Assembly (NCBI RefSeq): GCF_900112315.1
Contig: NZ_FOLL01000005.1
Span: forward strand, 124,001 to 188,000
Length of the DNA stretch: 64,000 bases
Source: Parapedobacter composti
GTDB taxonomy: Bacteria > Bacteroidota > Bacteroidia > Sphingobacteriales > Sphingobacteriaceae
Direction: 5' to 3'
Shown here: piece by piece, positions 13,557-38,457 of the stretch
How the letters are laid out: every line of letters starts with the position of its first letter
Numbering within the stretch: position 1 is the first letter of the stretch
Translations under genes and position numbers: made by a program
Notes under the pieces: model-generated
Told to the model about the DNA's origin: nothing
The model's database searches: none
What the model saw: only the letters and a program-made list of their open reading frames with translations

Positions 13557-13566
13557 CGTTGAAGAT

Positions 13567-16500
13567 TTATAAGCTCACACTTAATCCCAATGAGATCGTT
13601 CTCAAAATCGGGTAGTCGTACGCGCTGGACGTATATGGATCTTTGTATTTCAGCGGATTCACCAACGTCCACAGGTTGTTGCCGGTAGCCAGTATACGTG
13701 CACTTTGCAGACCGGCTTTAGCGACCAAAGACGTAGGAAGCCGATAGCCAATGGTCATGTTGTTTACACGCACCATTGTTCCGTCTACCATCCAGAAAGT
13801 GGAATTACGCCCTAATGACGGGTCGTCAAACCGCGGCATCCAGCCGTCAGGATTATCCGGAGTCCAGCGATCCCGCCAAAGGGTGAGTACATTCCGTGTC
13901 AACTGCGGCGCTGTACGTGCCCTGCCGTCATACGCCACCTTGCCACCAATCCGGGCATTGATATTGGTACTGAGGTTGAACGCTTTGTAGCTTATGCCCA
14001 GCGTAATACCGGATGCAAAAAGCGGGTTGGTATTTTCATACATCGGCACCAAATCCCAGTCATTGATGATACCGTCGCCATTCGTGTCTTCAAAGTACAT
14101 CCAACCCGGCTGGGGAATGGAATTGTATAGCCTGTAGTTGGGATTTTCTGACAAAAAGGCATCCACTTCCTGCTGCGTACGGAAAGTGCCCCGGTACAGC
14201 AAACCGAAGTTGTTGTTGTTATACTTACGCGGATCGGTGCCGAAGGCAGCCGCCAGACCATCCTCGATATTGTTCTCCAGTAAATCTCCGGGAGCATACA
14301 ATACCCGCGTTACTATGGAATTGCCATAACTGAAGTTCATACTGGCACTCACATTTACCTCACGGGCAATCTTAGCCCGGTATCCGATGGTAAATTCGGA
14401 ACCCCAATTATACGCTTCCCGGTAATTGATACCGGGTGGCAAGTAGCCTACGTATAACGGGGTAATGTCGTTGCCCCCCTGATCAAAACCGTCAAACACT
14501 TTGTTCTGGAAAAACTCGGCCCCGATATCCAGTTTATTATCAAACAGCGACATTTCTACCCCGAAGTTAACCGTCCGCTTTTTTTCCCATGTAATAAACG
14601 GGTTGGGGATAACCGACGGCCTCAGGGAATTGCCGTTGTTTTCTCCATACAAATAGCCGTTGGTAACGTCAATGACGTACCGCTCCTGCCACAACCGCTC
14701 TTCTACGCGGTCGTCACCGGTGATACCAATGTTAAACTTGAGTTTCAGGAAATTGATAAACGGCACATGATCTGCGAAAAACTCTTCCTGGCTAACCACC
14801 CAGGCTGCGCCGATACTGGGCGACCATCCCCACCGGTTTCCCAGCGCAAAGTTGGAAGAAGCATCCAGTCGACTTACCACTTCCACAATATACCGCTTGT
14901 CCCAATCGTAATTTAACCGTCCGAAGAACGACCGCTTGGCAGTTTCCGTCCGAGTTACCCCGTCTTGGGTCAGGGTATTCACATCAAACGCCCAGTACTC
15001 TTCGCCTCCCGGGATCAGCTGGTCTCTCCAATAGAACCGCATACTCTCCGAATTGGATTCCAACTGCTCTCCGCCTACGATAGCCTCCAGGCTGTGACGG
15101 CCAAATGTGTTTGCATACTGTAACGTCAAAAATCCTTGATAGCTATTGCTCTCGCCCAATTGTGGGCGTACCCGGGCATCCCGCTGAGAGACCACGTCTA
15201 TATAAGGAGTTTCCGGATCCAACTGATCAGTAAACAACTGTTGATTCTGCCCCCGACGTACAAAATTATACGCCCTGAACTGCGGCTGGTATAACCGGCC
15301 ATTTGTTCCGCTGCTTCCCTGAGAAATCTGGAACCGGGCAGTGAAGCCTTTCAAAAACTCCGGTTGGTACGTCAAACTGGTATTGATTCGGTAGCCCCGG
15401 TACTTTTGGACATCGGAATACCCCGATTCCAAGTAGGCCATCGGGTTTCGGTTAGCACTATAATTCACAAACTGATCACCGATGCGTATGGGAACCCATT
15501 TGGGCGTCACGATCATCGACTCAATAAAACTGGCGTCATTTTCAGTGATGTTATGCCGTGCATTCCGCACATTTTGATCCACGTTGAAATTCACATCCGC
15601 TTTCAGTCCGTTCCCGAAATCCGCAGTGATGCCTGTACGGAACGAGTACTTATCGAAATTCATTCCGGCATAATTTGCATTCTCGTTCTGATAGCTCCCC
15701 CCGGCAAAAAAGGTCAGCCTATCGGATCCACCGGATATCCCCACATTATGCCGCTGGGTCAGCGAAGGTTGCCACATCTCTTCAAACCAGCTTTTGTAAT
15801 TCAGGCTTCGGATATATTCCAGATCTTCCCGGCTAAAAAAATCGCTTTCGGGCGCATTCCGCATGATATTGACTTCATTCATAAGCAGGGCGTGTTCATA
15901 GGCCGATAACATCTCCGGCCGGGTTGCTGCGTCAGACACGCCGGCGTAACCGTTATAAGTGATGCTCGGCTTGCCCGCTTTACCGCGTTTGGTGGTCACC
16001 AGCATTACGCCCTTGGCTCCCGCTGCTCCGTAGATGGCTGCGGATGCATCCTTCAATATCGAAATATTTTCAATCATGGAGGCGTCAAGGTTGTCAAACG
16101 TCGGCCGGTCGACAATAATCCCGTCTACGATATACAACGGCTCGGCCGTCGCCCCAGCCGGGGCGTTGGGCGACGTCGAAGCATTCCGGATGTTCAACGT
16201 GATGCTGGCTCCGGGCCTGCCGGACACCTGGCTGACTCCTACCCCGGCAATCCGGTTACGCATGGCTCCCGCGATATTCGGTGCCGGGATGTCCATTAAT
16301 TCTTCACCAGTCACCGTAGCCACCGAACCGACAATCTCCGAACGCTTCCGCTCGCCGTATCCGGTTACCACCACTTCATCCAAACTGGCATTATCCTGCT
16401 CCAGGAAAACCTCCAGCCTGGCTCGGCCGCCCACCTCTACCTCCTGCGACCGATAGCCCAAAAAATGGAAGACCAACACCTCTTTACCCGTAGGGACATT

Positions 16501-16749
16501 TATCCTGAACACTCCGTTTTCATCGGTCGTTGTCGCGGTCTGTGTGCCCTTGAGGGTGACGGTCACCCCCGCTAACGGCTCACCACGCGAGTTTTTCACA
16601 ACACCGGTAATATTGATAAACCGGTGTGCCGTAGGCTCTTCCGCATAGGTCATCGGTGACATGAGGCACCCTACCAGCATAAGCCAACTGAATAACGGCC
16701 TGATCCGCATCGGCGCGACTCTACTGTAATACGTCAACTTACTGATCAT
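13567..16749 (-). CDS. SusC/RagA-family TonB-dependent outer-membrane receptor
   Basis: 1060 aa. Signal peptide (LFSWLMLVGCLMSPMTYA), then a carboxypeptidase-D-like beta-sandwich (about 45-125, ITGVVKNSRGEPLAGVTVTL), the SusC TonB-box/plug entry LDEVVVTGYGERKRSEIVGS, the plug domain (LYIVDGIIVD, IENISILKDASAAIYGAAGA) and a 22-strand-type barrel ending in hydrophobic residues (TISLGLSVSL). There is no N-terminal STN domain, so transenvelope sigma/anti-sigma signalling is unlikely; that fits control by the AraC-type regulator at 27988. It imports pectin oligosaccharides with TonB energy and leads the operon. The start at 16749 is the first ATG; Met14 (16710) is an alternative giving a more compact signal peptide. 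Confidence 0.95.
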   Translation of the reverse strand: MISKLTYYSRVAPMRIRPLFSWLMLVGCLMSPMTYAEEPTAHRFINITGVVKNSRGEPLAGVTVTLKGTQTATTTDENGVFRINVPTGKEVLVFHFLGYRSQEVEVGGRARLEVFLEQDNASLDEVVVTGYGERKRSEIVGSVATVTGEELMDIPAPNIAGAMRNRIAGVGVSQVSGRPGASITLNIRNASTSPNAPAGATAEPLYIVDGIIVDRPTFDNLDASMIENISILKDASAAIYGAAGAKGVMLVTTKRGKAGKPSITYNGYAGVSDAATRPEMLSAYEHALLMNEVNIMRNAPESDFFSREDLEYIRSLNYKSWFEEMWQPSLTQRHNVGISGGSDRLTFFAGGSYQNENANYAGMNFDKYSFRTGITADFGNGLKADVNFNVDQNVRNARHNITENDASFIESMIVTPKWVPIRIGDQFVNYSANRNPMAYLESGYSDVQKYRGYRINTSLTYQPEFLKGFTARFQISQGSSGTNGRLYQPQFRAYNFVRRGQNQQLFTDQLDPETPYIDVVSQRDARVRPQLGESNSYQGFLTLQYANTFGRHSLEAIVGGEQLESNSESMRFYWRDQLIPGGEEYWAFDVNTLTQDGVTRTETAKRSFFGRLNYDWDKRYIVEVVSRLDASSNFALGNRWGWSPSIGAAWVVSQEEFFADHVPFINFLKLKFNIGITGDDRVEERLWQERYVIDVTNGYLYGENNGNSLRPSVIPNPFITWEKKRTVNFGVEMSLFDNKLDIGAEFFQNKVFDGFDQGGNDITPLYVGYLPPGINYREAYNWGSEFTIGYRAKIAREVNVSASMNFSYGNSIVTRVLYAPGDLLENNIEDGLAAAFGTDPRKYNNNNFGLLYRGTFRTQQEVDAFLSENPNYRLYNSIPQPGWMYFEDTNGDGIINDWDLVPMYENTNPLFASGITLGISYKAFNLSTNINARIGGKVAYDGRARTAPQLTRNVLTLWRDRWTPDNPDGWMPRFDDPSLGRNSTFWMVDGTMVRVNNMTIGYRLPTSLVAKAGLQSARILATGNNLWTLVNPLKYKDPYTSSAYDYPILRTISLGLSVSL

Positions 16750-16898: not shown

Positions 16899-16929
16899 TG
16901 GCTCTACCCTGAGTTAGTTAGACAAAGTT
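16899..16929 (-). promoter_or_regulatory. Probable susC operon promoter (weak -7)
   Basis: Reading leftward, AACTTTGT (16929-16922) provides a -33-type TTTG/TTG. About 15 bp later TAGAGCCA (16906-16899) keeps only the TA of the Bacteroidota -7 consensus TAnnTTTG. A poor -7 fits a promoter that needs an activator. The predicted start leaves a leader of about 140 nt before susC. Confidence 0.5.
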
Positions 16930-16958
16930 CAAGAAAATACAGGATGGGATTTTACACC

Positions 16959-16989
16959 TTATTGCCTTGTTATTATACAATCTTATCAT
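16959..16989. promoter_or_regulatory. PUL operator candidate, copy 1 (susC)
   Basis: A 31-bp element (plus strand begins TTATTGCC, ends CTTATCAT) that recurs at 27867-27897 with one mismatch (position 11, G here and T there). It lies just downstream of the GH95 stop and 29 bp upstream of the AACTTTGT box of the susC promoter. The second copy has exactly the same 29-bp spacing to the same box before the symporter. The element is the likely target of the AraC-type regulator at 27988. Confidence 0.65.
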
Positions 16990-17003
16990 ATCCGGAAAAC
17001 AGC

Positions 17004-19823
17004 CTATAGCCGCTGCAATTTGCTATCAAAACGATAGCTGCTTCCCGGTTCGGTAGCCAGCTCCGCCAGGTATGCGGAATACCTGATGCGGAGCGGTCCG
17101 CCTTTTATCGAAAGTACCCGCAGCTCAGTGAGCCGGTGCTTTTCCCATTTCAGGTCAATGACGAAACCGCCCCTTGCCCGTATGCCGCTCACCTGACCAA
17201 ACGGCAGCATAGGCAACAGCGCTGGCAGCACGTCAATGCCTTCGGTGTGACTTTGCAGCAACGCCTCTACGATGCCCGCTGCCCCACCGAAATTACCATC
17301 AATCTGGAAAGGTGGGTGCGCGTCCAGCAAATTCGGATAAGAACCGCCTCCTCGGGCTGCCGGCGAAATCAGCATCTTAAGTAATTTCTCCGTCCGTGAA
17401 GCATCTAGCAACCGTGCCCAGAGGTTGATTTTCCAAGCCAGGCTCCATCCCGTTCCCTCGTCGCCGCGGTGGTTCAGGGAAATTCTCGCAGCCTCCATGA
17501 GGGCGGGATCATTAGCCCCGTTGATTCCGGCGCCCGGATGCACCGCCCAGAGGTGAGACATGTGCCGGTGCTTATTTTCCGGATCATCCACGTCATCCAG
17601 CCATTCCTGCAGCTGACCGAAGCGGCCTATCCGGTCGGGGGCGATCCGCGCTGCCAGCGCCCGGATATCCGCGGCCCAATCCTCGTCAATCCCCAGTCGG
17701 GCCGAAGCCGCAACCACGTAGCCGAAAAGTGCGCGGATCAACTGGTGATCCATCGCCGGCCCCGCCACCAGCCCCCCGTGTTCTGGCGAGTTGGACGGCG
17801 AGCTGATCAGATACCCCGTTTCGGTGTCTTCCTGCAGGTTATGTTGATAAAAGAGAGCGGCCTCTTTCATCACCGGATAGGCCCTGTCGCGTAGGAAGTC
17901 CTCGTCAAGTGTAAACAGGTAATGCTCCCACAGGTGGTGGCAGAGCCAGGCAGGTGCGCCCAGCCAGATACCGTGGTTCGGATGGTTTATCGGTGCCGTA
18001 CCCCGCCATAAGTCCGTATTGTGATGCACCACCCAGCCGGGGGTGCCGTAATGGATGCGCGCGGTTTCCCGTCCGCGCTCACGGAGCTCATCCACCATAT
18101 CAAACAGCGGCTCATGCAGGGCCGATAGCCCCATCACTTCGGCTGGCCAATAGTTCATTTCCAGATTGATGTTGGTGGTATACTTACTTCCCCATGGCGG
18201 GGTCATCAGGCCGTTCCAGAGGCCCTGAAGGTTCGCAGGCTGTGTGCCCGGCCGTGAGCTGGATATCAGCAGGTATCTTCCGTACTGTGCGTAAAGGGCC
18301 AGCAGTTGGGGGTCCTTACCGTCGGCAAATCGCGCAATGCGCTGGTCGGTGGGCAGATGATTAAGTGTATCGCCCCCAAAGCCGATGGAAAATGTGTCGA
18401 AAAATGAGCGGTAGTCCGCAATATGGTCTTGTTTCACCCGGTGATACGGCTGCCCTTCAAGAGCCGCCAGGGTATGGTTTACAGCCTCATCCGGACGTCC
18501 GGATGTATCGTCATAGCGTTTGAAATTGGTGGCCGCCGCAAGATATAGTGTCACCTCATCGGCGCCGGCGACGGTAATCGATGTGTCAGTGACCGATACG
18601 TCACCGCCCCTCGGCACGACACGCAGTAAGCTTTCGCCGCGGAGCGCTCCGCGCTTCACCTGCAACGTAAGACCCAGCGTCCGGCCGTCCACCCGTCGCA
18701 TACGCGAATTTTTATGGGGGCTGCGCAGGGAGGCGCGGACCGATACCGCGCCGCGCTGGTCGGCGCGGATGTGGGCTACCAGCACATTGGCAGGGTAGCT
18801 TGCGAAATACTCTCTCGTGAACGTAACGCCATTAACCATGTAAGACGTCGTAGCCACGGCATTGGCAATGTCGAGCATCCTCCGGTAGCTGGCCACTGAA
18901 TCATGCCCCGGCAACTGCAACAGCAGGTCGGCAAAAGGTTGGTAATCGGCCTGGTACCGAGGTTCCGCAGGTGCATCGTCGTTCTGCACGAAATAGTGCC
19001 AACGCTCCGGCAACGGCAGCCCGGCCTCATGCGATTTGCCCGCGGGATAAAGCGCCAGTGGAACCGTGGTATCTTTATAACCGACGAAACCACCTTTGTC
19101 GTAATAGTTCAGTACAAGCACGGTGAGTTGGTTGTTGCTTGCTTTTAACGATCCGGCTGGCACGAGGTAGCGTCTATCTTTCCCTGCTCCATCGGTATTG
19201 CCGATTAACCGCCCGTTCAGGTAGGTAAAATCCTCATCGCGTATTTTACCGAGGTCAAGCACCAAGGGCTGTTCCAATAGGCTGTCAGGTACATCGAACG
19301 CCGTGCGGAACCATACCGCACCGTCCAACCCTTCGAGCCCGGGGATGCCCGCCACCTCCCATCCACCGTGGGTGGGAAGTTCCATCACCTGCCAGAAATC
19401 ATCGTTATCCGGGGTGCCCGCAGCCAGCACCTTTGACCGCCAAGCGTTGCGGTCGCCCGCAGGTGACCGCAGCCCCATGAACCGTTCACCCGCCAGCCGC
19501 TCGGCTTCGGCCTGACGGCCCTCTGCCAGCAGCTGCCGCAGTTGCCCTACCACGGTTGCCGCTCCGGGCCGGTTGTATTCCCTCGGCTCGCCCGTCCAAA
19601 GCGTTTCTTCGTTGAATTGTATGCGTTCATGGGCCGTTCCGCCAAAAACCATCGCGCCCAGGCGGCCGTTCCCGATGGGCAGGGCCTCATTCCATTCCAC
19701 GGCGGGGCGGTCATACCAAAGCTCGAGCGCTCCGCCGGAACTACCGCCGGCGCATGCGCCGCACACCGCCATGATAATCAGCCAACGGCTCCCCTGTAAA
19801 CGTTTCAATAGCTGTAATCCCAT
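17004..19823 (-). CDS. GH95-family alpha-L-fucosidase/alpha-L-galactosidase with inserted beta domain
   Basis: 939 aa from ATG at 19823, 4 bp after the GH28 stop; the longer frame would overlap that gene by 59 bp. Residues 33-140 begin the GH95 N-terminal domain (LWYDRPAVEWNEALPIGNG). It is interrupted at about 140-262 by a galactose-binding-like fold (WEVAGIPGLEGLDGAVWFRT, DFTYLNGRLIG) of the kind seen in sialate O-acetylesterases, then resumes (YQADYQPFADLLL). The catalytic barrel has N551/N553 in NINLEMNYW, Glu681 in SPSNSPEH (predicted acid) and Asp788 in RGDEGTGWS, matching residues known from the bifidobacterial GH95 enzyme. Export signal at the N-terminus; SPI or lipoprotein is unclear. 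It is the last gene of its operon. Confidence 0.88.
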   Translation of the reverse strand: MGLQLLKRLQGSRWLIIMAVCGACAGGSSGGALELWYDRPAVEWNEALPIGNGRLGAMVFGGTAHERIQFNEETLWTGEPREYNRPGAATVVGQLRQLLAEGRQAEAERLAGERFMGLRSPAGDRNAWRSKVLAAGTPDNDDFWQVMELPTHGGWEVAGIPGLEGLDGAVWFRTAFDVPDSLLEQPLVLDLGKIRDEDFTYLNGRLIGNTDGAGKDRRYLVPAGSLKASNNQLTVLVLNYYDKGGFVGYKDTTVPLALYPAGKSHEAGLPLPERWHYFVQNDDAPAEPRYQADYQPFADLLLQLPGHDSVASYRRMLDIANAVATTSYMVNGVTFTREYFASYPANVLVAHIRADQRGAVSVRASLRSPHKNSRMRRVDGRTLGLTLQVKRGALRGESLLRVVPRGGDVSVTDTSITVAGADEVTLYLAAATNFKRYDDTSGRPDEAVNHTLAALEGQPYHRVKQDHIADYRSFFDTFSIGFGGDTLNHLPTDQRIARFADGKDPQLLALYAQYGRYLLISSSRPGTQPANLQGLWNGLMTPPWGSKYTTNINLEMNYWPAEVMGLSALHEPLFDMVDELRERGRETARIHYGTPGWVVHHNTDLWRGTAPINHPNHGIWLGAPAWLCHHLWEHYLFTLDEDFLRDRAYPVMKEAALFYQHNLQEDTETGYLISSPSNSPEHGGLVAGPAMDHQLIRALFGYVVAASARLGIDEDWAADIRALAARIAPDRIGRFGQLQEWLDDVDDPENKHRHMSHLWAVHPGAGINGANDPALMEAARISLNHRGDEGTGWSLAWKINLWARLLDASRTEKLLKMLISPAARGGGSYPNLLDAHPPFQIDGNFGGAAGIVEALLQSHTEGIDVLPALLPMLPFGQVSGIRARGGFVIDLKWEKHRLTELRVLSIKGGPLRIRYSAYLAELATEPGSSYRFDSKLQRL

Positions 19824-19827
19824 CGTA

Positions 19828-21396
19828 TTATGGTTTAAGCGTAACACAATCAACGCCGTCGCGTTGGACGACCTGCTGGACCGCAAGATCCAATACGTTG
19901 TTTTTCAGCACCACATTGGCACTCCGGATTCCGCTGACTTCCAGGAATACGTCCGTCCCGGATGCTGCTGTGGAAGTATGGATAAACACATTGCGAGTAT
20001 CAGCCAGTTTAACCAGCGGTGTCCCGGCCGGTGGCCGGCGCACGGCCAACCCACCTATTTCCAGACCGGTGACCCATTGCGCCTGCAGCGCCGATCCGGC
20101 TTCCGTCTGAATGCGGATGCCATGGAAATCAAGTTGGTTGGCATGACGGACCAGAATACCTTCCTTGGCACGGATATCGACGTCGTAAAACGACACGTCC
20201 TGCACGGGCATTTCCTCCAATCCATGAATCAGTACGGCACGGTTGCCTTCAGCTGTCATGTTGCTGAAGCGGATATTCCGGAATACCGGCGTACGCTCGG
20301 ACACCGGTTCCGGAGCCGTTTCTGCATATTGCATATTCAGCACGATAACCTCCTCCCGGATGTTCCGCATTACGATATTGCTCATGCGGATATCTTCTAC
20401 GATCCCACCCCTGCCTCGGGCAGTTTTGATGCGTAAGCCGCGATGGGTGCCGTCAAACACGCAGTTGCTGATGCTGATATTACGAACACCGCCGGACATC
20501 TCGCTGCCGATGACCACACCGCCGTGCCCGCGGAGCATCGTGCAATTGGTAATCACGTAGTTTTCGGCGGGCGCAGCCGCAAGGCGGCCTGAGCGGTCCT
20601 TACCCGACTTGATGGTGATGCAGTCGTCCCCCACCGAGATATGGCAGTTAGCAATATGCACGTTCCGACACGACTCGGGGTTAATTCCATCCGTATTCGG
20701 CGAGGGCGGGTTATTGATGGTCACCGCATCAATCTTCACGTTTTCACAATATTGCGGGTTGAGTGTCCAGAACGGTGAGTTGGTGATGGTTATTCCTTCC
20801 ACCAGCACATCCCTGCAATGCATGAACTGGATGAAAGGCGGTCTCAGAAAACCCTTTGCTATCCATCCGGGTTCGTCAGGGGGCACCACATTTCGGTTCT
20901 GACTGAAAAATTCGCGCTGCCATCGCGACACGTTGCCTGCTGTGTCCTTGCCGTAGATGTGGTCAAAAAAATACATCCACCACGTACGTCCGTTACCGTT
21001 GAGCCTGCCGCGTCCGGTGATGGCGATATTTTCGGCCCCGTAAGCATAAATGAGCGGTGAAAAATTGATAACGTCCGTCCCCTCCCACCGGCTGGGCACC
21101 ATCGGCAGATAATGGTCAAAATTGTCGCTGAAATGCAACTCTGCCCCGGCATCAAGATACAGCGTGATGTTGCTTTTCAGGTGAATCGGTCCGGTGAGGT
21201 ATTTCCCTGCGGGGAAAAAGATAGTCCCTCCGCCGTTATCGGATGCCTTGGCAATGGCCAGGCGCACGGCTTCGGTGATCAGCGCCGAACTATCATTCAC
21301 CGCGCCATACTCCAATACATTGTAATAAGGCTGCGCCCGCGCAGTGCCAATGCCAACCCCAATCCACAACAACAGTCCGACTCGGAATACGCTCAT
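19828..21396 (-). CDS. GH28 galacturonidase (exo-polygalacturonase type)
   Basis: 522 aa with signal peptide (VGLLLWIGVGIGTARA). Right-handed beta-helix with all GH28 active-site motifs: NTDG at 234-237, GDDC at 256-259 (D257, D258), GHGG from 290 (H291) and RIK at 322-324. The context PSPNTDGINPESC...ISVGDDCITIKSG is that of exo-acting enzymes that take galacturonic acid from oligogalacturonides or rhamnogalacturonan ends. It starts 4 bp after the preceding gene and is followed by the GH95. It supports pectin as the target of the locus and would supply monomers for the symporter and the cytosolic enzymes of the same operon. Confidence 0.93.
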   Translation of the reverse strand: MSVFRVGLLLWIGVGIGTARAQPYYNVLEYGAVNDSSALITEAVRLAIAKASDNGGGTIFFPAGKYLTGPIHLKSNITLYLDAGAELHFSDNFDHYLPMVPSRWEGTDVINFSPLIYAYGAENIAITGRGRLNGNGRTWWMYFFDHIYGKDTAGNVSRWQREFFSQNRNVVPPDEPGWIAKGFLRPPFIQFMHCRDVLVEGITITNSPFWTLNPQYCENVKIDAVTINNPPSPNTDGINPESCRNVHIANCHISVGDDCITIKSGKDRSGRLAAAPAENYVITNCTMLRGHGGVVIGSEMSGGVRNISISNCVFDGTHRGLRIKTARGRGGIVEDIRMSNIVMRNIREEVIVLNMQYAETAPEPVSERTPVFRNIRFSNMTAEGNRAVLIHGLEEMPVQDVSFYDVDIRAKEGILVRHANQLDFHGIRIQTEAGSALQAQWVTGLEIGGLAVRRPPAGTPLVKLADTRNVFIHTSTAASGTDVFLEVSGIRSANVVLKNNVLDLAVQQVVQRDGVDCVTLKP

Positions 21397-21400
21397 CGCT

Positions 21401-22945
21401 TCAAAGTTTTACGTTCAGTTTCGTCAGCCGCCTGCTTTTCGCCACGACTTTTCCATCGACATAAATTTTCAGTCCCTTACCTTTTCCGTACCGGGTGCCG
21501 CGCTTGTCCCACAGAATAGTCACGGTTTTACCGCCGTACGATAGCCTGTCCAGGCAAAACCAGTCCCATTTGCCCTCCGGAATCAGCGGGTTGAACAAAA
21601 ATCCGCCATCCTCGGCTGGCTTGAAGCCCACCAAATCATGGATAATCAAATCACAGAATGCCGAATGGTTGTAGAATTCGCTCCGCGGGTTGTCACCTTT
21701 TAGCCAATAGCCGGTTTTTTCATCCTGATATTCGCCGAGGTACAGTTGGCCGTCTTTCTGGTGTGCGTTGGCGTAGGTCCACAGCTCGTCATAAAACACG
21801 GCCTTGCTCATTTCCCCGCTGTGCCTGTAGCCAGAGAGCAGATTGGCCAGCCCCTTGAGCGTCTGCGTTGTCGCAAACGGCCATATGGCACCGTCCCATT
21901 CGCAGCCATGCCCTGATCCCCTGGTCCTGAATGTCGGTTCGCGGCGTTCCGCCGTGGTCAGCCCCCAAGGTGCATCAAATCCATTCGTGTCAACCAGTTG
22001 GCTCCACGCTTGGGCACGGTCTGGACGGTCATCTGGCAGGTTAAAATACCACGGAATGAACCCGATAGCCTCACGCGGGGCGAGTGAGGCGTCCGCCTCC
22101 AGCTTCGTTTTGTAAAATTTCGCGGTGTCATCCCACAAGTGTCGGTCAACGAGCTGTTTGATCTCGGCGGCCCTCCTGCTGTAATGGTCCTTCAGGCGGT
22201 TGTCACCAGCCATCGCAGCGATTTTGGCCAGCGCTACCGCATTGCCATGCATATATGCGTTGATGGTCGGCCGTGCGTTTTTCTCGCGGCGGCCGCCGCT
22301 TACGGATTCTTCCATTCCGTCTTTCACGTCATGCTGCCAGAACAGTCCGCCGGGCAGTAGCCGGTTGGCTTCCCACCACCGGAAATCGGCGTCAAGCAAC
22401 GCCAGCCGTTCCACCAAAAACCGCTCGTCGCGGTTCACCAGATACAGGTGGTATACGGCGTCGGACAGCCAATTGCTGAAATTATGAAACTTTGAGCCGG
22501 GCTGGTGCTGTTCGTACTTCAACCAAAAATCAATGTACTGGTTGATGTAAACCGGGTTGCGCAGCCATCTGCCTTCATAAATGTGGTGACCCAGTGCGCA
22601 ACTGATCGAATTGAACTCGCCGGCATGTTTGACGGGGGTAATGAACTCCGTAAAGATGTACCCATGAGGCGTCTTCTTGAGATGCTTCCGGAAGCTCCAC
22701 CATCGGTAGTAATAAATTTGTTCCAGTTTTTCATCCGGGCACTCAAAAAACGGAATGTTGGCAGCGAGCCAGTCAAACGCCTGCGCGTTGGAAATCTCGT
22801 TAACCACATGCTCCGGATCGGCGCGGTTAAAATCAGCTGCGTAAGCCGCCAGGAGGCTGTCGCCGAGCACCCGGAAGGCCGGCTGGGCATAGCCGAGGTT
22901 TGCGGCCAGCATAAACGTTAATCCCAATAATAATCTATTAACCAT
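21401..22945 (-). CDS. Secreted (alpha/alpha)6-barrel glycosidase, MGH1/GH63-like
   Basis: 514 aa from ATG at 22945, chosen because GGGAGGGG lies just before it and a signal peptide follows (MVNRLLLGLTFMLAANLGYAQ). The helix-pair pattern and motifs (YYYRWWSFRKHLK, SNWLSDAVYHLYLVN, ARPTINAYMHGNAVALAKIA, CEWDGAIWPFATTQTLKGL, SEFYNHSAFCDLIIHDLVGF) are those of MGH1-like or GH63/trehalase-type glycosidases. The reaction is not inferable. Neighbours (GH28, GH95, L-sugar enzymes) suggest a pectic or other plant glycoside substrate. The 120 bp upstream hold an inverted repeat and possibly an internal promoter. Confidence 0.7.
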   Translation of the reverse strand: MVNRLLLGLTFMLAANLGYAQPAFRVLGDSLLAAYAADFNRADPEHVVNEISNAQAFDWLAANIPFFECPDEKLEQIYYYRWWSFRKHLKKTPHGYIFTEFITPVKHAGEFNSISCALGHHIYEGRWLRNPVYINQYIDFWLKYEQHQPGSKFHNFSNWLSDAVYHLYLVNRDERFLVERLALLDADFRWWEANRLLPGGLFWQHDVKDGMEESVSGGRREKNARPTINAYMHGNAVALAKIAAMAGDNRLKDHYSRRAAEIKQLVDRHLWDDTAKFYKTKLEADASLAPREAIGFIPWYFNLPDDRPDRAQAWSQLVDTNGFDAPWGLTTAERREPTFRTRGSGHGCEWDGAIWPFATTQTLKGLANLLSGYRHSGEMSKAVFYDELWTYANAHQKDGQLYLGEYQDEKTGYWLKGDNPRSEFYNHSAFCDLIIHDLVGFKPAEDGGFLFNPLIPEGKWDWFCLDRLSYGGKTVTILWDKRGTRYGKGKGLKIYVDGKVVAKSRRLTKLNVKL

Positions 22946-23037
22946 ACCCCTCCCTATTATTGTGTTTTTCAATTGGTTAATTACAAGTATATTGCTTTCG
23001 GCCAATGTATTCAGCGTTCCGATACGTTTAATTTGCG

Positions 23038-23059
23038 CAAACGTTGCCGGTAACGTTTG
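23038..23059. promoter_or_regulatory. 22-bp inverted repeat (operator-like or hairpin)
   Basis: CAAACGTT, six bases (GCCGGT), then AACGTTTG. Twenty of 22 positions are palindromic around CCGG. It lies between the stop of the dehydrogenase gene and the start of the MGH1-like gene. Shape and CG-rich centre resemble LacI-family operators; a transcript hairpin is the alternative. No LacI-type gene is in the window. Confidence 0.45.
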
Positions 23060-23065
23060 TAATTG

Positions 23066-24076
23066 TCACAAGGTCACCATCGCTTTGATGACGTCCGACT
23101 CGGGCCGGAGCAACTGCGGAAAATCGCGGCCCACCTTTTCAAACGGAATCCGGTGGGTGATGTAGCTGGCCGGGTCAATCAGATGCTCGTCCATGCAGGC
23201 AAGCACCTGGTCAAAGTCGGCCCTGGTGGCATTCCTGCTGCTCATTAACGTGGCCTCCCGCTTATGAAACGCTGGATGGTTTACCGTGATATCGCCTTTT
23301 TGCAGGCCGATGAGCACGTAGCGCGCACCGTGGGCCAGGTATTCGAACGACTGGTTGATGGCCCTCAGGCTGCCCGTACAATCAATCACCACGGTGGGCA
23401 TATCCCCATGGGTAAGCGTTTCGAGCGCCTCCCGCACATCGCCTTCCAGGGCGTTTAAAGTATGGGATACGCCCAAAGCAGACCTGCAGAATGCCAGCCG
23501 ATTCGGGTTAACATCCAGCGCAATCACCTCCGCACCGGCAATTCGGGCGAAGGTCATGGTGCCTAAGCCAATCGGCCCTGCGCCCACTACCAGTACATAT
23601 TCACCGGGACCTACCCCTGCCCGGCGTACCCCGTGTGCCCCTATCGCGAACGGCTCCACCAAAGCTAGCTGGTCTGCCGTAAGGCCGCGGCCTTGAATCA
23701 GCGCCCTGTCGGGCACGACGAAATATTCAGCCATGGCACCATCTACGTGCACGCCGCATACCGCAATAGCTGCACAGCAGTTGGGTTTGCCCCGCCTGCA
23801 CGCCACGCACGCGCCGCAACTGAAATAAGGAATAACCGTTACTGCATCACCCACTGAAAAGCCCGGCGCATCGGTTTCGGCGACTTCGGCCGCTATCTCA
23901 TGCCCCAGTATCCGCGGATAGTCAAAAAACGGCTGTGTACCTTCAAACGCATGGATGTCGGTACCGCAAATTCCCACCTGCCGGATTTTCAGCAGCGTAT
24001 GCCCGGCGCGGCGCCGGGGCACCGCCAACTCATGATAGTCCAACTGACCAGGTTTTGTACATACAAGCGAGTTCAT
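23066..24076 (-). CDS. Zinc-dependent MDR dehydrogenase, likely acting on a sugar or sugar acid
   Basis: 336 aa, cytosolic. Catalytic zinc ligands C37 (GICGTD), H59-E60 (GHE) and E141 (VEPFAIG); structural zinc Cys at 87, 90, 93 and 101. Nucleotide fold GAGPIG at 165-170 with Asp188 after the second strand, which favours NAD over NADP. MDR enzymes of this build include L-galactonate, L-fuconate/L-rhamnonate pathway and L-idonate dehydrogenases. Translationally coupled (4-bp overlap) to the DapA-family aldolase upstream. Together they suggest breakdown of an L-sugar or uronic acid released by the GH78, GH95 or GH28 enzymes; the exact substrate is unknown. Confidence 0.82.
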   Translation of the reverse strand: MNSLVCTKPGQLDYHELAVPRRRAGHTLLKIRQVGICGTDIHAFEGTQPFFDYPRILGHEIAAEVAETDAPGFSVGDAVTVIPYFSCGACVACRRGKPNCCAAIAVCGVHVDGAMAEYFVVPDRALIQGRGLTADQLALVEPFAIGAHGVRRAGVGPGEYVLVVGAGPIGLGTMTFARIAGAEVIALDVNPNRLAFCRSALGVSHTLNALEGDVREALETLTHGDMPTVVIDCTGSLRAINQSFEYLAHGARYVLIGLQKGDITVNHPAFHKREATLMSSRNATRADFDQVLACMDEHLIDPASYITHRIPFEKVGRDFPQLLRPESDVIKAMVTL

Positions 24077-25020
24077 CGGTCTACGGTATTATTCGTTAAA
24101 TAATCGAGTTTGCGGTACAAATGCTGCATGTGGGCATGCAGGACGTCCATATTTCTCTTCACAACCCCGTTGAACACCCCGATATCCCGTCTCGTAAAGG
24201 TAGAAATAGGGATGCCTCTTTGCTGCAAAAAGTACTTTGCAGCCGTAGGATATACCTGATGCATCACATCCATATGGTCAATAAAAAACTGCTGCACCAG
24301 TTCCACCTGCTCCCCACAGGCGGAATTGTCGTAATTCCGGCAAAGCCACACCACCAATTCCGGAAAATAATTTGCTTGGATGCAAGAGAGCCCCGCCGAA
24401 CCGGCCTTGAGCGATGCCACAGCATGCACCATGTAGGCATCATACAGCCCGAAAGAAGGCATATCCTGCGTTGCCTGCAATTTAGCTGTTACCTGCTCGA
24501 TATCCAAACAGGTATCCTTGTGGTAAATAACCCTCCCGGTATCTGCAAACCGTTTCAGCTGCCCAGCGGAGAGTACCCGCTTGAATGGATCGGGGCACTC
24601 GTAAAATCCCAGCGGAACGCCGTGGGTGGCATCGAGCAATTGGAACACGTTGTGCTCAAACACGTCGTCTCCCTCGCTTTCCCCGGCCAACATATTGGTA
24701 ATGGCGATAGCCGCTTCAATGCCCGTATCGTACATCTGCTTGATGAAATCTGTCTGATGGTGGATGGGGCCTCCGAACGTAGCGGTGGCTACCACCGGTA
24801 CCGCCGCTCCCACCACGTCAACAATATGGCGGACAACAGCCAGGCGCTCGGCATCGGTCAGCTCGAACATTTCGCTGGAGAGGCAGTTAGCAAAAAGGCC
24901 TGACGCACCCGCCTCCAGGTACCATTCGGTTAACTTGGTCAGTCCGTCAAAGTCAATAGTTCCGTCTTCCCTGAACGGCGTCAGCATCACGGGAATAAGT
25001 CCCTTGGGTGTTTCGCGCAT
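24073..25020 (-). CDS. DapA/NAL-superfamily aldolase or dehydratase with atypical carboxylate motif
   Basis: 315 aa class I aldolase barrel. The Schiff-base lysine is K168 (VIYHKDTC) and the general base Y140 (LGFYECPDP). The usual pyruvate-carboxylate loop G-x-T-G-E is replaced by ANCLSSE at about 45-50, so the substrate may differ from DHDPS or NAL. It leads an operon with a zinc dehydrogenase and secreted pectin enzymes, pointing to a 2-keto-3-deoxy sugar acid as substrate (for example 2-keto-3-deoxy-L-rhamnonate or -fuconate); this is inference. A clear -7 box (25074-25081) lies upstream. Confidence 0.8.
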   Translation of the reverse strand: MRETPKGLIPVMLTPFREDGTIDFDGLTKLTEWYLEAGASGLFANCLSSEMFELTDAERLAVVRHIVDVVGAAVPVVATATFGGPIHHQTDFIKQMYDTGIEAAIAITNMLAGESEGDDVFEHNVFQLLDATHGVPLGFYECPDPFKRVLSAGQLKRFADTGRVIYHKDTCLDIEQVTAKLQATQDMPSFGLYDAYMVHAVASLKAGSAGLSCIQANYFPELVVWLCRNYDNSACGEQVELVQQFFIDHMDVMHQVYPTAAKYFLQQRGIPISTFTRRDIGVFNGVVKRNMDVLHAHMQHLYRKLDYLTNNTVDR

Positions 25021-25073
25021 GGATATATCAGTAACTCGTCACGTTTTATTTTCTGTGTTTTACAAATGGCTAA

Positions 25074-25081
25074 CAAAGGTA
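25074..25081 (-). promoter_or_regulatory. -7 promoter box for the aldolase-GH28-GH95 operon
   Basis: TACCTTTG on the minus strand matches TAnnTTTG exactly, 54 bp upstream of the aldolase start. The nearest upstream TTG is only 13 bp away, shorter than the usual 17-23, and no copy of the 31-bp PUL element is present. Confidence 0.5.
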
Positions 25082-25186
25082 GTCCAGACATATACAACGG
25101 TTCTATACCAAATTTGCGGAGTATTGTAGGATATTAGCGATCTGCTTTACTTCGGACTGAGGCTTCCGCTATTCGCTGCTCGCTAT

Positions 25187-25232
25187 GAGTCCAATATGAG
25201 TCCGATATAAATCCAATATAGGTCCGATTTTT
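25187..25232. repeat. Four degenerate 11-12-bp tandem repeats
   Basis: GAGTCCAATAT, GAGTCCGATATA, AATCCAATATA and GGTCCGATTTTT follow one another in the 328-bp gap between the aldolase gene and the divergent unknown gene. The shared core is rTCCrATAT. Apart from these repeats and the aldolase -7 box I see nothing else in this gap. Confidence 0.6.
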
Positions 25233-25348
25233 GTGGTAAAAAACCAGACTTCTTTTTGATACTTAATGGGTTATGTTCTGATTCACATATAAGCAAATAT
25301 AAATGGGGAAAAAGCAAAGATATATTATCATCCAAATAACTTTCAACA

Positions 25349-26215
25349 ATGGCAATACAAGGGCGAAACGGCAAAATAAAGGGTAAAATCAACAACATCG
25401 TTTACCGCAGCTACCGCGATAAGCAAGTGCTGCAAATCCTTCCGGACCGCGTGCGGCAGACCTACGCTACCAAGCTCGCTGCACTCGAGTTTGGGCTGGC
25501 CAGCATTCAGGCAAAAATACTGCGCCGTATCTTGTGTAATTTTGTCGGCGAATACGATGGAAAAATGGCCGTACGGCTGAATGCAGCGGTACTGGAATGC
25601 CTGCGTACTTCGCAGCGGGAAGTGGGTGAACGGACGCTTCATGATGCCGATTTAGGGGGACTGAAAGGATTCCAGTTCAACGCCAACGCGCCGATTGAAC
25701 GGTTGGTAAAGGTGAGGCCGTCGATCGACCTAGCACCAAATGGCCAAATCCGGATTGCGCTGCCCCGGTTCAATGTGATGAGCGACTTGGTTTACCCGAA
25801 GGAGCCGCAGCGGTTTGTTCCCTGCTTTTTCATTACGGTGGCCGCTTTCAACTTCTTTGAGGAATCGCTCCATATCATTGACTACGCGTCTTTTGAGTTC
25901 ACGGGCGACAACCAGGAGGCAGAAATCGACTGGTTATGCAGCAGACAGCTGCCGAAGGGCAGCATGGTGTTTATCACGCTTGCGCTGAGTTATGTGCATA
26001 CCAACTGGGTCGGGCAGCGCCAAGTTACCAAAGACAGCGCGTTTTCGCCGTCCATCATACTGGATGCGTTCCATGTTACCGACGCAATGGCTTCCAAAGG
26101 GGCTGAAGATGGCCTCGAAACACCGAAAGAAGCCATGCCGTGCGATGATATATTCACCCGCAAGTTACGGGAAATCGCCTACTTCAAGAAAAAATATGCC
26201 AAGAACGCCCGATAG
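25349..26215 (+). CDS. Hypothetical protein
   Basis: 288 aa, cytosolic by sequence (no signal peptide or membrane segment). The N-terminus (GRNGKIKGKINNIVYRSYRD) recalls short Bacteroidota proteins of unknown function that begin with a G-K-I/V-N-x-V-Y/G-Y segment (DUF6266-like), but I cannot assign the family. Basic N-terminal helices are followed by a beta-rich middle (PNGQIRIALPRF, CFFITVAAFNFFEE) and a basic tail (KKKYAKNAR). It is convergent with the symporter gene (11-bp gap) and interrupts the PUL; codon use looks like that of the neighbours. A role in the PUL is not supported by anything in the sequence. Confidence 0.7.
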   Translation: MAIQGRNGKIKGKINNIVYRSYRDKQVLQILPDRVRQTYATKLAALEFGLASIQAKILRRILCNFVGEYDGKMAVRLNAAVLECLRTSQREVGERTLHDADLGGLKGFQFNANAPIERLVKVRPSIDLAPNGQIRIALPRFNVMSDLVYPKEPQRFVPCFFITVAAFNFFEESLHIIDYASFEFTGDNQEAEIDWLCSRQLPKGSMVFITLALSYVHTNWVGQRQVTKDSAFSPSIILDAFHVTDAMASKGAEDGLETPKEAMPCDDIFTRKLREIAYFKKKYAKNAR

Positions 26216-26226
26216 TATCTGGCGAG

Positions 26227-27774
26227 TTAACGTCGCATAGCCGCCAGACCCGTCCCCACCAGCGATATCACCAGTGTACCTATCACGATGATCATATTGG
26301 CATGCAGCGGGTACCGGAGATATCCATAATGTTCGGGGATGAGATAAGAAAACGTCATCCACAGGATGGCCAGCACCCCGGCTATCACCGCGATAGCGGC
26401 ATCACCGCCTCTTGCCTTTTTGCTGATGATGCCCAGCAGAAACAAACCGAGCATGCCGCCTGCAAAAATGCCGGAAAGCTGCCACCAGGCATCAAGCACG
26501 CTTTTGATGCCAATCATCGCTACCCCGGCGAACATTCCCATGATGCCGAAAACGGCGGTGGCGGTATACAACAGCCGCAACTGTCCCTTTGCACTGAGGC
26601 GTGGATTAACGTACCGCTTGTAAATGTCCTCCAGAAAAACCGTGGCCGAGGCATTCATGCCGGAACTGATGGTACTCATCGCGGCGGACAGCAGGGCCGA
26701 TACGATGAGTCCGACCAAACCTGCCGGTATCTGGGTGACCATAAAATGCGGCATCACTTTGTCGCCGTAATCTTCGGGCTTCAGCGTTGCTGCCAACTCC
26801 ACGATTTCCTCCTGCGTGGCCGATGCGCCCAGTTGTTCAGACGCCGCTTGCAATTTTACAGGCTCTATCAAATCGGGATTCATCCCGTAATAAGCAAACA
26901 GGCAAGTACCGATGACGAAAAAAAGCAAGGAGGCCGGCACATATATCAGTACGCAGAGCCACACCGATTTGCTGGCTTCTTTGACTGAAGAGGCGGTATG
27001 ATAACGCTGCACGTAGTTCTGATCCATGCCGAAGTTATTCAGGTTGATGAAGAACCCGTACAGCAGGACAACCCAAAACGTGGATGACGAGAGATCCAGC
27101 GACAACCCACCCAGGCTGAATTTGCCGTTTACATTCGCTATTTCGATGATTTCAGGTATGCCGCCGGGCATATTATTCACCACAAGGTATACAATCAATA
27201 CGGCTCCCAGCGTTTTGATGACCCCTTGCACCACCTCCGTCCAGATGACCGCCTCGATGCCGCCCATTACGGTGTAGATGATGATGCAGATACCCGTAAC
27301 GACCATGATGGTTTCCATTGAATAGCCCGTAAGCGCCTGCAGACTCAGCGCTATCCCGAAAAATATGGAACCCATGCGGGCGAGTTGCGTGAGCAGGAAA
27401 CAGATGACGGCATAGCTCCTAGCCCAGGGACCGAACCGTTTCTCCAGGTTGGTGTAGGCCGACACCTCTCCTGTAGCACGGTAGAAGGGCACGAAGTACT
27501 TTACAGCCACCCACGCCGCCAACGGCATGGAGATACTGAAGACGAAGGCGTTCCAGTTGCTGCCGAAAGCCTTTCCAGGAACGCCCAGAAATGTATTGCT
27601 GCTCAGAAACGTGGCATATATCGACAGTCCAATGGCCCACCCCGGAATAAGTCCGGATGCCTTGGTGAACTGTTCGGCGTCTTTGTTCCGCCGTGAAAAC
27701 CACACGCCCACCAGGACCATTGCCAGCAGGTAGCTCAGAATCACGGCGATATCAAACAAGGGAAGTTGTTTCAT
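26227..27774 (-). CDS. SSS-family sodium:solute symporter
   Basis: 515 aa from ATG at 27774 (a TTG one codon upstream opens the frame). About 13-14 membrane helices. SSS-family features: DIAVILSYLLAMVLVGVWFSRRNKD at the first helix, ASGLIPGWAIGLSIYATFLSSNTFLGVPGKAF (Na2-site region), GGIEAVIWTEVVQGVIKTLGA, and SSGMNASATVFLEDIYKRY. It would bring a released monosaccharide or uronate into the cytoplasm with Na+. Its promoter carries the second copy of the 31-bp element at the same spacing as susC, which ties it to the PUL. It diverges from the AraC-type gene. Confidence 0.9.
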   Translation of the reverse strand: MKQLPLFDIAVILSYLLAMVLVGVWFSRRNKDAEQFTKASGLIPGWAIGLSIYATFLSSNTFLGVPGKAFGSNWNAFVFSISMPLAAWVAVKYFVPFYRATGEVSAYTNLEKRFGPWARSYAVICFLLTQLARMGSIFFGIALSLQALTGYSMETIMVVTGICIIIYTVMGGIEAVIWTEVVQGVIKTLGAVLIVYLVVNNMPGGIPEIIEIANVNGKFSLGGLSLDLSSSTFWVVLLYGFFINLNNFGMDQNYVQRYHTASSVKEASKSVWLCVLIYVPASLLFFVIGTCLFAYYGMNPDLIEPVKLQAASEQLGASATQEEIVELAATLKPEDYGDKVMPHFMVTQIPAGLVGLIVSALLSAAMSTISSGMNASATVFLEDIYKRYVNPRLSAKGQLRLLYTATAVFGIMGMFAGVAMIGIKSVLDAWWQLSGIFAGGMLGLFLLGIISKKARGGDAAIAVIAGVLAILWMTFSYLIPEHYGYLRYPLHANMIIVIGTLVISLVGTGLAAMRR

Positions 27775-27807
27775 CAAGGCTCATCTATTGGTTTCCGCGC
27801 TCGGCTA

Positions 27808-27837
27808 CAAATATAAGGGGCGGAACAATACAAAGTT
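27808..27837 (-). promoter_or_regulatory. Symporter promoter
   Basis: AACTTTGT (27837-27830) gives the -33 TTTG and TATATTTG (27815-27808) a perfect TAnnTTTG -7 box; 15 bp separate TTTG and the -7 box, slightly short of the usual spacing. The 31-bp element ends 29 bp upstream of the AACTTTGT. Confidence 0.65.
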
Positions 27838-27866
27838 GCGCTAAACGGCCACCGCATTATTGAAAT

Positions 27867-27897
27867 TTATTGCCTTTTTATTATACAATCTTATCAT
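27867..27897. promoter_or_regulatory. PUL operator candidate, copy 2 (symporter/araC-type gene)
   Basis: Second copy of the 31-bp element found at 16959-16989 (30/31 identical, same orientation). It sits in the 213-bp divergent region, 90 bp from either start codon, so it could serve the symporter, the regulator gene or both. Confidence 0.65.
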
Positions 27898-27987: not shown

Positions 27988-28887
27988 ATGATAAGCGTCA
28001 TGAAACCATTGTTTCACAAAGTACCTACCCAAATGCAGTCGTCATTCAGCGTACGGCACGATGTGCAGGAAAACTTCGGTTCGCTGTGGCATTATCACCC
28101 GGAGCTCGAACTGCACCACGTAATACGGGGCCGGGGCGTCCGGTTCATCGGTGATAATATCGGCAACTTTTCGGAAGGGGAAGTATTGCTACTGGGTAGC
28201 AACCTACCGCATATGTGGCGGTGTAATGAAGAGTATTACCAAAACAACCCTGAACGGAAAGTGGAAGCCATCGTCATCCATTTTCTCCCTGATTGCCTGG
28301 GCAGGGACTTTTTGAGCCTTCCCGAAACTTACCTGATACCCAAACTGCTTGAACAGGCGAGGAAGGGCATGAAATTTTCCGGAAGGAGCCGGGAAAAATT
28401 GATAGAACTGATGCACAGGGCCATGACTGCAACGTATATCGACCGATTAATTATCTTGCTGAACATTCTTAAAACCGCTTCCGAAACGGATGAATACGTT
28501 CCTATCGCTTCAGCACATGCGTTCTACAAATCAAATGAAATGGACGCCGCACGTTTCAACCGGGTCTGCACATACACCTTGAGCAATTACAAAAAGGTTA
28601 TCACGCTGGAAGACATCGCCTCGGTGGCTAACCTCAGTGTCACCTCGTTCTGCCGGTATTTCAAGCTGATGACCAAGAAGACCTATTATGATTTCCTCAT
28701 TGAAATCCGCATCAGCCATGCCTGCAGGCTGTTGGTGGAGGATCTGCTGCCCACGGAAGTCATCTGTTTTGAATGCGGTTTTAACAATGTGTCCAACTTT
28801 TACCGGCATTTCAAAAAAGTATCCGGCATGACACCGCTGGAATACAAAAAGCGCTACCTGCAAAACAACGTGCTGGCTGCAAGTTAG
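27988..28887 (+). CDS. AraC-family transcriptional regulator with N-terminal cupin
   Basis: 299 aa. Residues about 20-100 form a cupin sugar-sensing fold (HYHPELELHHVIRGRGVRFIGD, FSEGEVLLLGSNLPHMWR). Residues about 200-295 are the double helix-turn-helix AraC domain (ITLEDIASVANLSVTSFCRYFKLMTKKTYYDFLIEIRISHAC, GFNNVSNFYRHFKKVSGMTPLEYKKRY). A one-component regulator of this type commonly activates sugar uptake operons. It lies at the end of the PUL beside the conserved 31-bp element, and no HTCS or sigma/anti-sigma pair is present, so it is the likely PUL regulator. GGAG lies before the ATG at 27988; Met5 (28000) is an alternative. Confidence 0.92.
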   Translation: MISVMKPLFHKVPTQMQSSFSVRHDVQENFGSLWHYHPELELHHVIRGRGVRFIGDNIGNFSEGEVLLLGSNLPHMWRCNEEYYQNNPERKVEAIVIHFLPDCLGRDFLSLPETYLIPKLLEQARKGMKFSGRSREKLIELMHRAMTATYIDRLIILLNILKTASETDEYVPIASAHAFYKSNEMDAARFNRVCTYTLSNYKKVITLEDIASVANLSVTSFCRYFKLMTKKTYYDFLIEIRISHACRLLVEDLLPTEVICFECGFNNVSNFYRHFKKVSGMTPLEYKKRYLQNNVLAAS

Positions 28888-31810: not shown

Positions 31811-31818
31811 TAACTTTG
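31811..31818 (+). promoter_or_regulatory. -7 promoter box of the GT4 fusion gene
   Basis: TAACTTTG matches TAnnTTTG; the predicted start near 31825 gives a leader of about 47 nt to the ATG at 31872. Confidence 0.55.
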
Positions 31819-31871
31819 GTTCCAATCGATTGGCAGAACTGTTAGTTGACAAAATTTACCATAAAAAAGTT

Positions 31872-38315: not shown

Positions 38316-38340
38316 GATATATGGGTGCGAAGTTAGTGAT

Positions 38341-38457
38341 TTTTTTTGGTGGTGGTGGGTGGTCGGTGATGGGGGGTGGGTGGTGGGTGATGGGTGGTCG
38401 GTGATGGGTGATCGGTGATCGGTGGTCAGCGATGGGTGGTCGGTGATCGGTGATGAC
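38341..38457. repeat. Degenerate GGTGATCGGTGATGGG-type repeat tract with G-quadruplex motif
   Basis: The space between tsaB and yidD is filled with G-rich, imperfect 8-9-bp units (ggtgatcg, ggtgatgg, ggtggtcg, ggtggtgg). Within it, 38371-38394 reads G6-T-G3-TGGT-G3-TGAT-G3, a canonical four-run G-quadruplex pattern with loops of 1, 4 and 4. No coding sense is seen; frames crossing it encode only His/Pro/Ile/Asp repeats. Confidence 0.8.

Follow-up and report, generated by a model that had tools for sequence, protein, structure and literature searches.

The 31-bp element that is repeated within the window (the whole stretch of Parapedobacter composti DNA that was analysed, 64,000 nucleotides long) is best explained as the greater part of an operator serving the neighbouring AraC-family regulator (27988-28887), which would activate operons of this pectin-degrading locus from promoters lacking a -33 element. 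Judging from the sequence evidence, we assign this reading a probability of about 0.86. The anatomy of the operator, its conservation, its fixed spacing to the promoter and its co-occurrence with the regulator could be read directly from the DNA compared. Binding by the regulator, activation rather than repression, and the nature of the effector are what we infer from them.

A pairwise comparison of the plus-strand segments 16959-16989 and 27867-27897 showed identity at 30 of 31 positions and a loss of identity outside both copies, in agreement with the original prediction. Also as claimed there, an identical box, AACTTTGT on the minus strand, was located 29 bp away from each copy. Read on the plus strand this box is ACAAAGTT, at 16922-16929 and 27830-27837, and these are the only two minus-strand occurrences of AACTTTGT within the 64-kb window. 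Both copies have the common orientation that had been proposed, each being directed towards a minus-strand gene, SusC (13567-16749) in one case and a sodium:solute symporter (26227-27777) in the other. The pair is not the sole repeat between promoters of the locus, as had been thought, since a diverged third copy of the operator was found at 25104-25140. The features identified are as follows, where the class offset is the distance to TTTG shared by sites of this type.

16953-16989, minus strand: operator 1, before the SusC operon (34.6 bits, E 1.1e-7 in its own genome with a 69-column model; match 16922-16989); half-site 1 at 16974-16987 and half-site 2 at 16953-16966, read off as a direct repeat
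16923-16930, minus strand: -7 box of the SusC promoter, GAACTTTG, with TTTG at the class offset
11676-16749, minus strand: SusC (13567-16749) and SusD (11676-13556) genes, lead genes of a leftward operon
25104-25140, minus strand: operator 3, before the aldolase-dehydrogenase-MGH1-GH28-GH95 block (20.9 bits, E 0.0023; match 25073-25138); half-site 1 at 25125-25138 and half-site 2 at 25104-25117
25074-25081, minus strand: -7 box of the aldolase promoter, TACCTTTG
17004-25020, minus strand: aldolase (DHDPS family), dehydrogenase, MGH1-like, GH28 and GH95 genes, proposed as the operon of operator 3
27861-27897, minus strand: operator 2, between the symporter gene, which it precedes, and the divergent AraC gene, 90 bp upstream of the latter (36.2 bits, E 3.7e-8; match 27829-27897); half-site 1 at 27882-27895 and half-site 2 at 27861-27874
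27831-27838, minus strand: -7 box of the symporter promoter, CAACTTTG, with TTTG at the class offset
26227-27777, minus strand: sodium:solute symporter gene, target of operator 2
27988-28887, plus strand: AraC-family regulator of 299 aa (HTH_18), proposed binder of the three operators

Both half-sites are present in operator 3, with the box at the class offset, and its model match stops 52 bp short of the aldolase gene. In Parapedobacter luteus, too, the symporter and aldolase genes have a similar site between them (L074 4113). The regulator carries a C-terminal double HTH of the AraC type (HTH_18, 69.4 bits with a cut-off of 33.6; HTH_AraC, 42 bits with a cut-off of 26.6), and where an N-terminal ligand-binding domain would be expected, residues 27-81 match Cupin_2 at 21.9 bits, under the cut-off of 27.2. 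The domain search gave nothing beyond these HTH matches and the weak cupin match, and in particular neither a kinase nor a receiver domain. Other features of the window were recorded as well. Between the operons, 25349-26215 (plus strand) encodes a 288-aa protein with no Pfam or NCBIfam match, relatives of which (51-56% identity) are similarly placed in three Parapedobacter genomes. A G-rich tandem array with units spaced 14 bp (GGTGATGGGTGGTC-like) occupies 38337-38455, and an imperfect palindrome with overlapping 23-nt arms, 78% complementary, is found at 31811-31844, where a glycosyltransferase ORF begins nearby.

Read on the strand of the regulated gene, the operator is composed of two direct half-sites 21 bp apart, GATAANATNNTAYA-N7-GNNAANAWNNTAYA, followed by a fixed gap and the -7 box AnnTTTG. 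The half-site GATAANATNNTAYA recurs at +21 bp, where the half-to-half identity is 0.585; among the lags of 8-30 compared, the second best was 13 (0.461). The 31-mer includes the whole of half-site 1 and part of half-site 2, and the conserved columns extend 6 bp nearer the gene. The view of the 31-mer as the operator was supported by its conservation beside the regulator, but the operator is longer than 31 bp. A 51-site alignment was drawn from 60 scan matches of a 31-column model, leaving out G000 40740, G007 3040, G033 9465, G060 18067, G025 4996, G022 14386, G013b 10313, G047b 9015 and G011 14533. In this alignment, in which all sites are oriented to the leftward gene, TTTG is found 32 bases past the 31-mer in 44 cases. 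The seven exceptions have TTCG (three), TTTA (one), TTTG one base off (one) or no box at that offset (two, the symporter-side sites of G004 and G007); these departures count against the proposed explanation. Weaker operator copies in the G003, G005 and G006 loci (L040, L034 and L042) precede 579-aa genes, one of them annotated as a GMC oxidoreductase, and have TTCG replacing TTTG, possibly a variant -7 box. The omitted site of the window's own genome, at 40740 (minus strand), scored 21.3 bits with the 31-column model (reversed maximum 13.5), lies within a 136-aa ORF and was rejected as a candidate, being absent from the 69-column matches at E <= 10 among the best 150 of 2036 candidates.

The sigma-A promoter of Bacteroidota includes a TTG element at -33. 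The promoters behind the operator were compared in a second alignment of 71 sites, hand-picked for diversity from 113 sites that scored above 18 bits and had TTTG to begin with; the invariant TTTG of this alignment is thus there by selection. At the place of the -33 element TTG was not enriched, with nine starts in total across the 71 sites in columns 34-44 and a maximum of three per column. The match of the -7 box to TAnnTTTG is partial, the T of TA being present in 29 of the 71 sites and missing in 42. The poor -7 box of the susC copy had been taken as a sign of an activated promoter; the fixed spacing and the absent -33 TTG fit activation, but a poor box is ordinary in this class. The -7 box of Flavobacterium psychrophilum extends from -12 to -5 (PMC9723704). 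By analogy with that position, transcription starts are predicted near 16918 for SusC and near 27826 for the symporter; the predicted aldolase start lies near 25069. If the -7 box is taken as -12 to -5, half-site 2 would lie at about -48 to -35 and half-site 1 at about -69 to -56. The AraC-type dimer would then sit at about -69 to -35, with both of its HTH domains on one face of the DNA, 21 bp being two helical turns. In this position it may stand in for the -33 contact when RNA polymerase is recruited, a class-II-like mode of activation, presumably upon sensing a pectin-derived sugar. The operons driven in this manner would be those of SusC, of aldolase-GH28-GH95 and of the symporter, and probably a fourth one 35 kb off in the same cluster.

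The regulator has orthologues in 19 relatives, with 67-86% identity. In all of them, as well as in the window's genome, the best-matching element was found 54-140 bp upstream of the AraC gene. Across these 20 genomes 15 of the 31 element columns are invariant, and leave-one-out scores were 31.6-44.6 bits, while the maximum in reversed sequences was 13.5 bits (1.69 million positions). Two nearly identical copies in one locus could also be a chance or mobile repeat with no regulatory role, and this is the only point that speaks for such an origin, whose probability we regard as negligible. A match of at least 30 of 31 positions to such a 31-mer is expected about 1e-10 times by chance (2 x 64 kb, independent bases, 65% A+T), and the 4.62-Mb genome held no further copies at three or fewer mismatches. 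Furthermore, Sphingobacteriaceae, Flavobacterium, Hymenobacter, Spirosoma and others share the half-site columns and the promoter offset, and the remaining sequence has diverged. We therefore rejected an origin by chance or mobility.

Scans of the related loci revealed more copies before relatives of the window's SusC, symporter, pectate-lyase-like (7780), DUF6298 (4638), DUF3826 (9483) and aldolase genes. SusC-side copies were present in seven relatives (eight sites), where some of the SusC proteins share only about 30% identity with that of the window. Six of the seven genus relatives having the regulator showed no site directly before SusC in the loci retrieved from them, including G007, where SusC is 57% identical, and this result counts against the proposed explanation. 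With respect to the claim that the two copies control SusC and the symporter, both do face those genes, but the SusC-symporter pairing is not conserved and the targets vary.

The presence of a site next to the regulator in all 20 genomes is also what would be expected if the AraC-type protein bound these sites mainly as a repressor, or mainly to control its own gene, and the regulator-side site is kept in G004 and G007 despite the missing leftward -7 box. However, the sites have a single orientation, to the leftward gene, and a fixed offset to the -7 box of that gene, whereas their distance to the regulator gene varies, and the absent -33 element fits activation. A further argument comes from CgrA of Zobellia galactanivorans, likewise an AraC-family regulator encoded in a polysaccharide locus, whose positive role was demonstrated by deletion (PMC5698469); CgrA acts on a carrageenan locus, and it is likened here by description, not by sequence. 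We consider repression or self-regulation as the main role to be improbable. The site beside the regulator is also upstream of the regulator gene, a point against the favoured reading, and may have a role in autoregulation.

A 40-column model devoid of the -7 box, built on 48 of the 51 sites (the three before 579-aa genes were dropped), was used to scan held-out loci. The set consisted of 69 of 80 loci, 11 having been put aside for overlap with training genomes, and includes Pedobacter, Flavobacterium, Hymenobacter, Spirosoma, Dyadobacter, Mucilaginibacter and Terrimonas. Sites above 15 bits were found in 69 of 69 loci (the maximum of the reversed control was 12.8 bits over 2.0 million positions in all 80 loci), and in 64 of them within 500 bp upstream of the regulator. 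The other five lacked a site above 15 bits within those 500 bp, which counts against the explanation. The box, which the scan did not use, was recovered as TTTG at the class offset in 115 of 128 held-out sites, with 0 or 1 occurrences at the other offsets of 24-40. Loss of the element from loci that keep the regulator had been named as the outcome that would speak against an operator; instead, the element was present in 19 of 19 relatives and in these 69 further non-training loci. The next downstream gene of the 115 boxed sites most resembles that of the symporter (41), a fucose-isomerase-like protein (30), the DUF3826 protein (26), MGH1 (4), the aldolase (3), SusC (2) or the pectate-lyase-like protein (1), with six sites lacking an assignment and two at a locus edge. 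The first three are the commonest targets (97 of 115). The fucose-isomerase name derives from Pfam Fucose_iso_C, which scored 28.9-39.9 bits in five proteins with a cut-off of 29.3, one being just under.

Co-occurrence was assessed in 100 genomes, including that of the window. Strong sites (E <= 4.4e-5) were present in all 24 genomes with an orthologue of at least 60% identity and in 2 of the 76 without one (Fisher 4e-21, with genomes treated as independent though related), which supports the operator interpretation overall. In this search 50 candidates were scored per genome under strict filters, so that weak sites can escape, and the scan that gathered the 71 sites drew its training sites from genomes that include some of these 100. 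The two exceptions, G027 (E 3.6e-5) and G028 (E 1.8e-5), count against the explanation; the remaining genomes without such an orthologue had no site or none better than E 0.00126. Within-genus contrasts were concordant in g1, g2, g7, g11, g13 and g18, and the exception, g20, is due to G027, in which the best regulator homologue is 44% identical.

These results also bear on which protein binds the sites. The AraC gene, considered the only regulator gene by the original prediction, is not so for the whole cluster, as an IclR-type regulator gene (C39:118711-119490, plus strand) lies 4.5 kb left of the window within the same gene cluster. This protein could be the binder, or else a hybrid two-component regulator (HTCS) encoded elsewhere, given that HTCS operators of Bacteroides thetaiotaomicron are likewise direct repeats, averaging 21 bp apart, bound by an AraC-type HTH at polysaccharide utilization locus (PUL) targets including susC (PMC3878776). 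Nonetheless, the sites track the AraC orthologue across genomes, and a tblastn search (1e-8) of 80 loci and 32 assembled regions, site-bearing loci among them, found no relative of the IclR protein, although these stretches span 3-64 kb and a distant copy could escape. We regard another binder as very improbable, and the IclR protein is disfavoured on these sequence comparisons. The adjacent regulator, our preferred binder, is not itself an HTCS: those are membrane fusions of a periplasmic sensor, histidine kinase, receiver and AraC-type HTH, a composition that the domain search did not find in the 299-aa protein.

The genome was searched with a 69-column model built on 71 sites, the window's own sites being excluded. 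Among the best 150 of 2036 candidates scored, three matches had E < 0.01, all within this locus. A fourth match, 35 kb left of the window, is weaker (E 0.24) and has the full operator anatomy; it is probably a fourth copy in the same cluster. The gene behind it heads a run of genes for solute-binding-protein-like, CoA-transferase III and oxidoreductase proteins, where two adjacent CoA-transferase III genes are flanked by solute-binding-protein-like genes within the polysaccharide cluster (G000 C39:85378-87676, L162). Minus-strand genes continue for about 50 kb left of the window, interrupted by the plus-strand IclR-type gene. The region C39:70252-125460 (L162-L164), nearly all minus-strand, encodes apiosidase-like, GH141, GH106, GH78, GH127, GH2, GH28 and SusD proteins and runs into the window. 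We take the enzyme set of the cluster to resemble that of Bacteroides rhamnogalacturonan-II loci. DUF3826 is present in a rhamnogalacturonan-II locus (PMC7939467).

The upstream regions of seven paralogous regulators with 47-54% identity were inspected. Four of them (G000 C24, G003 C2, G004 C10 and G006 C1; 50-54% identity) have a 21-bp repeat in the divergent upstream region with other inner bases (approximately GATAAATNNGTATACA) and TTTG at the offset of the orthologues, and with the orthologue model these repeats reach just -3.7 to 5.7 bits. In a fifth, G033 C1, TTTG again occupies the offset and the repeat is poorer, and neither repeat nor box was seen upstream of the other two. In L166, L167, L171 and L172, a second conserved block, AAAAGTGTATACANATACAAA, lies next to the repeat, a short way ahead of the paralogous AraC genes. 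In 60 upstream regions of distant AraC homologues with 156 AnnTTTG anchors, z was 2.7 at lag 21 and 3.1 at lag 24, with 7 strong pairs at lag 21 versus 0-8 at other lags. It is conceivable, if somewhat doubtful, that operator and promoter form a rigid unit of about 67 bp, made up of the 21-bp direct repeat, a fixed gap and AnnTTTG and lacking a -33 element, which is common to several Bacteroidota AraC-type subfamilies that differ only in the inner half-site bases. If so, it would offer a readable code from which to predict operators for many AraC-type PUL regulators that are still uncharacterised.

Direct repeats of 21 bp have been described for RhaR of Bacteroides, also an AraC-family activator of sugar use in Bacteroidota (PMC3870299); its target pathway is different, and the likeness is by description, not by motif letters. 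SusR operators are also direct-repeat operators of PUL activators, but SusR boxes are 67 or 77 bp apart (PMC3878776), whereas the half-sites here are 21 bp apart. Since such repeats were already described for RhaR and HTCS, the operator type is known and this instance is new; no description of this operator was found in the titles and abstracts of the open-licence PMC literature searched. Its notable features are the fixed promoter spacing and the wide conservation. For a regulator that occurs widely at pectin-type loci outside gut Bacteroides, the results supply a candidate operator, together with a 71-site, 69-column model that finds candidate target operons genome-wide. They suggest that one AraC-type protein may coordinate outer-membrane uptake, inner-membrane uptake and catabolism.
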